Shown: one piece after another, positions 40,519-41,723 of the stretch
Position numbering within the stretch: the stretch's first letter is position 1
Layout of the letters: every line of letters begins with the position of its first letter
NCBI GenBank assembly: GCA_021780225.1
Contig: JAJXZF010000039.1
Span: 62,001-126,000, forward strand
From: Deltaproteobacteria bacterium
GTDB taxonomy: Bacteria > Desulfobacterota > Binatia > Binatales > Binataceae
Reading direction: 5' to 3'
Length of the DNA stretch: 64,000 bases
Translations under genes and position numbers: made by a program
The notes under the pieces: generated by a model
The model's database searches: none
What the model saw: only the letters and a program-made list of their open reading frames with translations
Told to the model about the DNA's origin: nothing

Positions 40519-40872
40519 CTACTCGAAAAGCGCGAGCAGCTTTTCCGACGGCCGCGCGATCACGGCGCGCCGCCCGCGAATCACGATCGGACGCTGCATG
40601 AGCTCCGGATGCTTCGCCAGCAGATCGAGCACGGCGCCGCGTGCAACGTAATCGCCGGCGTTCAGGCCGAGTTCGCCGAAGCGCTTGTCCTTGCGCACCA
40701 GATCCCCGATCGGCCCTTCGAGCATCGCGGCGATCTTCTCCAGCTCCGCCCGCGAAAGAGGATTCTTGAGATATTCGACGGTGTCGAACTCGACACCGCG
40801 GCGCGCCAGCAATTCCCGCGCGCCGCGCGACTGGCCTCAGCCAGGGTTGTGATAAAGCGTCACACGTTCCAT
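40519..40872 (-). CDS. arsC: Arsenate reductase (ArsC/glutaredoxin-type) with in-frame UGA, predicted selenoprotein
   Basis: From the ATG at 40872 the frame reads MERVTLYHNPG, then TGA (40839-40837), then GQSRGARELL and on to a stop at 40519, 117 residues if the UGA is read through. In plasmid R773 ArsC the aligned start is YHNPAC with catalytic Cys12; here the UGA is exactly codon 12. Arg60, Arg94 and Arg107, the arsenate-binding triad of R773 ArsC, are present at identical numbers (DLVR, QRP, ARP). An AGGGAGG lies about 10 nt before the ATG. A perfect hairpin follows the UGA (separate entry). I infer selenocysteine. The alternative is a Cys-to-stop mutation, but the intact remainder argues against decay. 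Gene callers would report a truncated start at 40812. The enzyme would reduce arsenate or a related oxyanion, or act as an Spx-like protein. Confidence 0.82.
40797..40839 (-). promoter_or_regulatory. Candidate bacterial SECIS hairpin after UGA
   Basis: Counting in the RNA sense, the UGA (40839-40837) is followed by 9 nt and then a perfect 10-bp stem, CGCGGCGCGC (40827-40818) with GCGCGCCGCG (40806-40797), enclosing an 11-nt loop GGGAATTGCTG. Bacterial SECIS elements sit directly after the UGA with a short apical loop having G in the first positions, which is met here. High GC makes chance pairing possible, so this is support rather than proof. Confidence 0.6.
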
Positions 40873-41033
40873 CGCGCCGCCGGCCTCCCTGCGCATAGCT
40901 TTCCGGCGTCGCCGCCGGGACGTTTAAAAATTAACCGAACCGTGTCGCCATTGCGAGCGCATCGCGGCTATGCTTTATCGCTTGCGCAAGACCCCCGCGC
41001 GCGCGCCCGCGCCGCCAAAACTATGGAGTTGCG

Positions 41034-41723
41034 ATGAGCCCTCAGCAGACCGCCAAACCTGATTCCATTATCCGCGGCGCGGTTCGCCGTCTCGCCCTGG
41101 CGGCGGCGCTTGCGATGGCGGCGGCGTTCGCGCCCGCGGCCAGCGCCGAAGCCGGCCGCGTGAGCGGCCTTCTGCTCACCTATCAGGGCCGGCCCGACGC
41201 GAGCCGCGACCTGCATTTCGAAAATTGCATCACGCACGACAACTTCCTCGCGCCCACCCACAGCGACGGTTCCTTCGCGCAGAGCCTGCCGCCGGGATGC
41301 TACAACCTGCGGGCAGAGCGCGGCGCGATCCTGAAAAAATCGATTCAAGTTGGCGATGCGCCCGTCAATCTGGGTCAGGTGAGCGATCTCGCGCCGCTGG
41401 CGCCTGCGCGGCTGTTCGACTTGCAGGCGCTGTTTCCGACGCTGGTCTACAGTCCCGCGCCGTCGACCGCGTTCGTCTTCACGCGCGACACGACCGTCGT
41501 GCCGAAAAGCGCGCCCAGAATCGCCGTCCCCAGCTCGGAAAGCGCATGGCTCAGGGCGCAGCGGGAAAACGGAACGGGCGTGGGCGCGAAATCGACCTGG
41601 TCGCCGGCCGGCCGCGGATTCATTTCGCTCACGCCCGGCGCGCCGGGCGCGCCTGCCGAAAGTTATACTCCGCCGGGCAGTTTCGGCCCGCAGAGTCCGG
41701 CCGGAGCGCCGCCGGCCAATTGA
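41034..41723 (+). CDS. Exported protein with carboxypeptidase-regulatory-like domain
   Basis: The 229-residue protein has a clear signal peptide (LALAAALAMAAAFAPAASAEA). Residues about 42-110 (VSGLLLTYQGRPDASRDLHF ... SDGSFAQSLPPGCYNLRAER) look like a small beta-sandwich of the carboxypeptidase-regulatory/Cna-B type, in which a modified core of glycine and proline precedes the ligand face. The C-terminal third is Pro/Gly/Ser-rich and probably disordered. The role is unknown; such domains are found in envelope and extracellular proteins. Confidence 0.7.
   Translation: MSPQQTAKPDSIIRGAVRRLALAAALAMAAAFAPAASAEAGRVSGLLLTYQGRPDASRDLHFENCITHDNFLAPTHSDGSFAQSLPPGCYNLRAERGAILKKSIQVGDAPVNLGQVSDLAPLAPARLFDLQALFPTLVYSPAPSTAFVFTRDTTVVPKSAPRIAVPSSESAWLRAQRENGTGVGAKSTWSPAGRGFISLTPGAPGAPAESYTPPGSFGPQSPAGAPPAN

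Follow-up and report, generated by a model that had tools for sequence, protein, structure and literature searches.

Does the in-frame UGA of an arsC-like gene mark a broken or shortened reading frame, or is it read as selenocysteine (Sec), and if so, by which RNA signal and for what function? The gene lies on the reverse strand at 40519–40872 of the 64,000-nucleotide stretch of DNA that was analysed (hereafter the window), which belongs to contig C98 of a Binatota-type MAG of 3.8 Mb that is 97% complete. The Binatota-type affiliation is inferred: among named relatives in the genome collection, the closest are filed as Deltaproteobacteria and the more distant as Candidatus Binatia/Binatota. 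When the UGA is translated as a residue, the frame comprises 117 codons and a TAG stop and specifies a 117-aa product (MERVTLYHNPG-U-GQSRGARELL...RPSEKLLALFE) with a single internal UGA and no further stop, so that the full-length ArsC of the original prediction is recovered. The UGA is codon 12 (40837–40839, reverse strand), where read-through translation, alignment and homologues place a predicted Sec at the position of the catalytic Cys. In a phmmer alignment with the R773-type ArsC structure 1jzw (E = 7.6e-18), residues 1–115 fall on residues 1–115 almost without gaps; codon 12 aligns to Cys12, H8, S15 and R16 are numbered alike in the two proteins, and the arsenate-binding arginines R60, R94 and R107 are in register, as had been claimed for both the UGA and the arginines. 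A Shine-Dalgarno-like GGAGG (40884–40888, reverse strand) is located 11 nt upstream of the ATG at 40872, and GGAG-type sites precede the equivalent arsC start in several relatives. The longest ORF without read-through is a 97-aa frame starting from TTG at 40812; ordinary gene calling thus drops the first 20 codons, including the active site, as was anticipated.

The window protein scores 45.2 bits against the Pfam ArsC model PF03960, above the gathering cut-off of 24. The NCBIfam arsC equivalog TIGR00014 is still its top-scoring model, but the score with C for U (94.4 bits) lies below the curated cut-off of 106.05, and the protein is therefore filed only as a member of the ArsC family (PF03960), not as a TIGR00014 equivalog. 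The Spx models give 48 and 46.1 bits against cut-offs of 123 and 75.05, short of what the Spx/MgsR regulators require, and a glutaredoxin domain is also matched, more weakly than ArsC. An AlphaFold2 model in which the UGA was modelled as Cys has a mean pLDDT of 94.7, and its top matches among solved structures are ArsCs (Z 16–18.6), with Z = 18.6 to 3f0i and 16.2 over 114 residues to the R773 ArsC 1jzw; as modelled, the fold is that of ArsC. The protein thus shares a full-length alignment and the residues H8, 12, S15, R16, R60, R94 and R107 with the R773 and Escherichia coli ArsC structures (1jzw, 1i9d), from which it differs in having Sec for Cys12, in its identity of only ~35% and in being encoded outside an ars operon.

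A search of 145 related genomes and a species-representative collection, with duplicates removed, yielded 104 distinct homologous genes; these sequences are related, and counts of them are not independent. Codon 12 is UGA in 45 and TGC or TGT in 59, with no other codon, so that the nucleophile position holds Sec or Cys in every homologue, and a second internal stop is found in none of the 104. Relatives indeed carry either Cys or UGA at this site, and the view that only the active-site codon is altered, through Sec use and not decay, agrees with the lack of premature stops elsewhere in the gene. Besides Binatota, the UGA forms are found in records that carry the labels Pseudomonadota, Actinomycetota, Latescibacterota, Gemmatimonadota and others. 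Both forms coexist within single genus codes, namely g7 (Sec in G026, Cys in G012), g10 (G015 and G028, respectively) and g37 (G064 and G095 versus G070 and G100), and these genera amount to natural experiments on the reasons for retaining or losing selenium. Parsimony on the arsC tree gives 14 Sec/Cys changes, only one of which is forced by starred branches, and the number of switches is not firm because 117 columns resolve few deep branches. In a plasmid search, all homologues were below 60% identity; of the eight listed, six carry an ordinary arsC annotation and the other two carry none. In one relative (G125, contig C1), two equal-scoring Sec-arsC copies at 86069 and 5140032 lie near the two ends of a 5.18-Mb contig, perhaps as the end overlap of an unclosed assembly.

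Among the 45 Sec forms, H8, R94 and R107 are invariant and R60 is present in 43. Gly flanks the Sec residue, at codon 11 in 39/45 and at codon 13 in 43/45 (in the window, 40842–40840 and 40836–40834), whereas the corresponding positions of the Cys forms hold mixed residues and mostly Ser, respectively, and do not share the Gly-Gly pattern. These glycines could serve the enzyme, or they could reflect a preferred G after the UGA that weakens termination.

The machinery for Sec insertion, which the original prediction had proposed to look for, is complete in the genome: selA (567 bits), selB (370 bits) and selD (387 bits) were identified, together with tRNA-Sec genes with a UCA anticodon. The selD gene has an in-frame UGA of its own (context KAAG-U-AGK), and ~16–17 nt beyond it, at the standard SECIS spacing, lies a hairpin whose loop contains G. 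Across genomes, selA is present in 36 of 38 with UGA-arsC and in 29 of 41 with Cys-arsC (Fisher p 0.007, kinship not corrected); the two Sec-form genomes in which selA was not detected, G015 and G086, are both incomplete, fragmented MAGs. Two near-identical tRNA-Sec genes (L009 1497–1592 and L010 1497–1592; G000 C18) are situated 2.9 kb apart, and the same genome contains one more tRNA with a UCA anticodon (L011 1500–1592; G000 C70), whose 5′ acceptor end is odd and which could be decayed or a contaminant.

Two readings would dispense with Sec. That the gene is a pseudogene, contains a sequencing error, or has an ordinary stop and a downstream start is scarcely credible: standard gene finding does yield the 97-aa ORF, but the active site lies upstream of the putative internal start, a Shine-Dalgarno site precedes the upstream ATG, changes relative to the nearest relative are mostly at third positions, and the identical UGA in 45 distinct homologues without other stops already refutes it. 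A chance UGA is excluded because those 45, from different genera and phyla, share the codon, 59 others have TGC or TGT, and other stops are absent. It is likewise very unlikely that in this genome UGA has come to stand for a standard amino acid or that non-specific suppression is at work; the odd UCA-anticodon tRNA on contig C70 would suit such a reading, but codon 12 alternates always with Cys, and TGA is the normal stop of pheA, mutL, rpmB and other window genes as well as of 17 of the 45 Sec-form arsC genes. As TGA terminates ordinary genes, the code is not globally changed. Judged from these comparisons of sequence, the UGA of this ArsC-like gene is almost certainly read as selenocysteine.

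Downstream of the UGA, a distal hairpin at 40778–40799 (reverse strand) forms a 9-bp stem closing the loop AGUU (−14.9 kcal/mol in the window), of which the part corresponding to 40781–40796 is kept as a core in Sec forms. This core, GUCG-AGUU-CGAC or a close variant, is common to 45/45 Sec forms, whereas the Cys homologues lack it. It is encoded by codons 27–30 as GUC GAG UUC GAC, with the variants GUC GCG UGC GAC (four genes), GUC GAG GUC GAC (two) and a final GAU (five). None of the 45 Sec forms varies at the third positions of codons 27–29, which are free in the Cys forms, where the same amino acids are variously encoded (Val by GTC in 23 and by other codons in 17, Glu by GAG in 8 and GAA in 6, and Phe by TTC in 16 and TTT in 7). 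Helix cells are paired at 99.6% in 40 distinct Sec rows compared with 68.4% in Cys rows, counts taken from an alignment in which the columns carry codons as well. Compensatory, both-sided changes occur at two pairs (C-G/U-A/G-C and A-U/C-G), and in Sec forms the stem is closed over AGUU or CGUG. In synonymous-codon shuffles of codons 26–31, the mean z was −1.59 for Sec forms and −0.38 for Cys forms, and the signal was absent from a control stretch (codons 33–45). These features make the distal hairpin the probable SECIS of the gene.

The published bacterial SECIS model demands 16–37 nt from the UGA to the apical loop (PMC13188914). The distal hairpin agrees with that model in its stem and its small loop with G in the first two positions, but departs from it in spacing, since every Sec form with the hairpin has 46 nt between the UGA and the start of the loop. 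A perfect-stem scan found a hairpin at exactly 46 nt in 32/45 Sec forms and 1/59 Cys forms, and hairpins within 16–37 nt, at scattered spacings, in 9/45 and 2/59, respectively. An Rfam scan of the window returned no matches. A covariance model of the RNA gave strong matches in the 145 relatives at arsC, with a few weak, near-threshold matches elsewhere. The core hairpin sequence GTCGAGTTCGAC occurs in nine copies in the genome; one of them (L144) was considered as a second such gene, having a TGA 47 nt upstream, and was rejected because the frame of that TGA is not open.

The segment between the UGA and the distal hairpin can itself fold into a proximal hairpin (40798–40826, reverse strand), as indicated by synonymous shuffles and pairing. 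For codons 13–25, the shuffle z was −1.16 in Sec forms and 0.01 in Cys forms; pairing is 76.9% and 62.0%, respectively, strong covariation is absent, and the element is weakly conserved as a structure. Both hairpins are very stable when the window sequence is folded, and RNAalifold on a longer stretch returned the distal hairpin only with default settings and both hairpins with relaxed ones. The proximal hairpin is possibly a spacer that brings the distal one closer.

The first report of Sec-ArsC with the motif UxxS, in 2005, concerned the Sargasso Sea (14 sequences; PMC1088965); the protein reappeared as “ArsC 1” in the GOS study of 2008 (77 sequences; PMC2398784) and is included in a 2022 review and a 2026 catalogue (PMC13188914), so that the original prediction was correct in stating that such relatives had been seen in metagenomes; no experimental study was found in the literature searched. 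The published proteins (COG1393/TIGR00014) are of the same family, with UGA at the catalytic Cys, UxxS and bacterial Sec machinery. They are short metagenomic sequences, whereas the window gene lies within a MAG, and Sec-ArsC, so far mainly a metagenomic prediction, is thereby placed in a genome alongside the machinery and redox partners that go with it. Changes between Sec and Cys within a genus, and a probable SECIS located at 46 nt through covariation, also set the present case apart. This SECIS resembles the bacterial SECIS consensus (PMC13188914) in its stem of at least 4 bp and its short loop with G then U/G near the 5′ side (AGUU, CGUG, AGGU), and differs from it in the 46-nt distance, instead of 16–37, and in the second hairpin that intervenes. 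Thus, the kind of protein is already known, and the displaced, possibly two-hairpin SECIS may be new relative to the published spacing model; the 2005 paper (PMC1088965) presents an ArsC SECIS (AACY01238341) as a figure.

The Sec-arsC gene stands alone between the convergent rpmB (ribosomal protein L28; 40301–40489, forward strand) and an uncharacterised gene, outside an ars operon, and this layout is kept within the genus. The divergent neighbour (41034–41723, forward strand) encodes a possibly secreted protein of 229 aa without a Pfam match and adjoins Sec-arsC in relatives from the genus and family as well. Elsewhere, the genome carries gshB (glutathione synthetase), two clear glutaredoxins and two acr3 loci for Acr3 arsenite pumps, each with a nearby LMW-phosphatase-type (Trx-type) ArsC that is unrelated to Sec-ArsC. 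Glutathione synthetase, glutaredoxins and Acr3 are the partners needed by an R773-type enzyme, which makes arsenate reduction plausible; the location beside rpmB and the acr3 loci's own ArsCs suggest that arsenate detoxification is maybe not the main job of Sec-ArsC.

The choice of hairpin and the choice of substrate each leave a competing reading. The proximal hairpin might be the SelB-binding SECIS and the distal one an accessory enhancer of read-through, since the proximal loop lies ~19 nt after the UGA in the window, within the published range, and only in Sec forms is the segment more stable than its synonymous shuffles. This arrangement is improbable, as the proximal loop and stem are not conserved in sequence beyond amino-acid coding, pairing stands at 76.9% compared with 62.0% in Cys forms, and hairpins conforming to the model at 16–37 nt are far rarer than those at 46 nt. 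We lean, somewhat cautiously, toward a distinct SECIS class in Sec-ArsC genes, in which SelB binds a hairpin that sits at a constant 46 nt past the UGA, farther than the accepted range allows, is brought close by an intervening helix and is kept across several phyla. If this class is real, searches based on the SECIS model tend to miss such genes; if the displaced element is confirmed, SelB can work across a structured stretch longer than prediction programs allow for, and other selenoproteins have perhaps been overlooked. As to substrate, Sec might be inserted into a Grx-like or YffB/Spx-like thiol-selenol oxidoreductase of the same fold that acts mainly on something other than arsenate, in keeping with the solitary gene beside rpmB within the genus, the two separate acr3/Trx-type ArsC loci, the score below the TIGR00014 cut-off and the weaker glutaredoxin match. 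This, too, is doubtful: the arginines of the arsenate site are kept, and the arsC models far outscore those of Spx and Grx. Spx-type proteins carry CxxC, and the motif here is UxxS. Arsenate reduction is the best guess from sequence, and a likely one.

Taken as a whole, the gene is very probably a selenocysteine form of the R773-type, glutaredoxin-dependent arsenate reductase whose UGA is recoded via the distal hairpin. SelB carrying Sec-tRNA-Sec would bind that hairpin at its AGUU loop and recode the UGA; because the distal loop does not begin until 46 nt past the UGA, the RNA in between probably folds into the proximal hairpin, which would stack under the distal one and shorten the effective distance. 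In the enzyme, Sec12 would attack arsenate held by R60, R94 and R107, a Se-As-SG adduct with glutathione would form and be reduced by glutaredoxin, and the arsenite would be exported by Acr3. Beside acr3, at L156 on the reverse strand, a 282-aa ORF combines an ArsC of the LMW-phosphatase type with a domain of the glyoxalase family. The ArsI C-As lyases belong to the glyoxalase superfamily, and this ORF might be an arsenic-related fusion.
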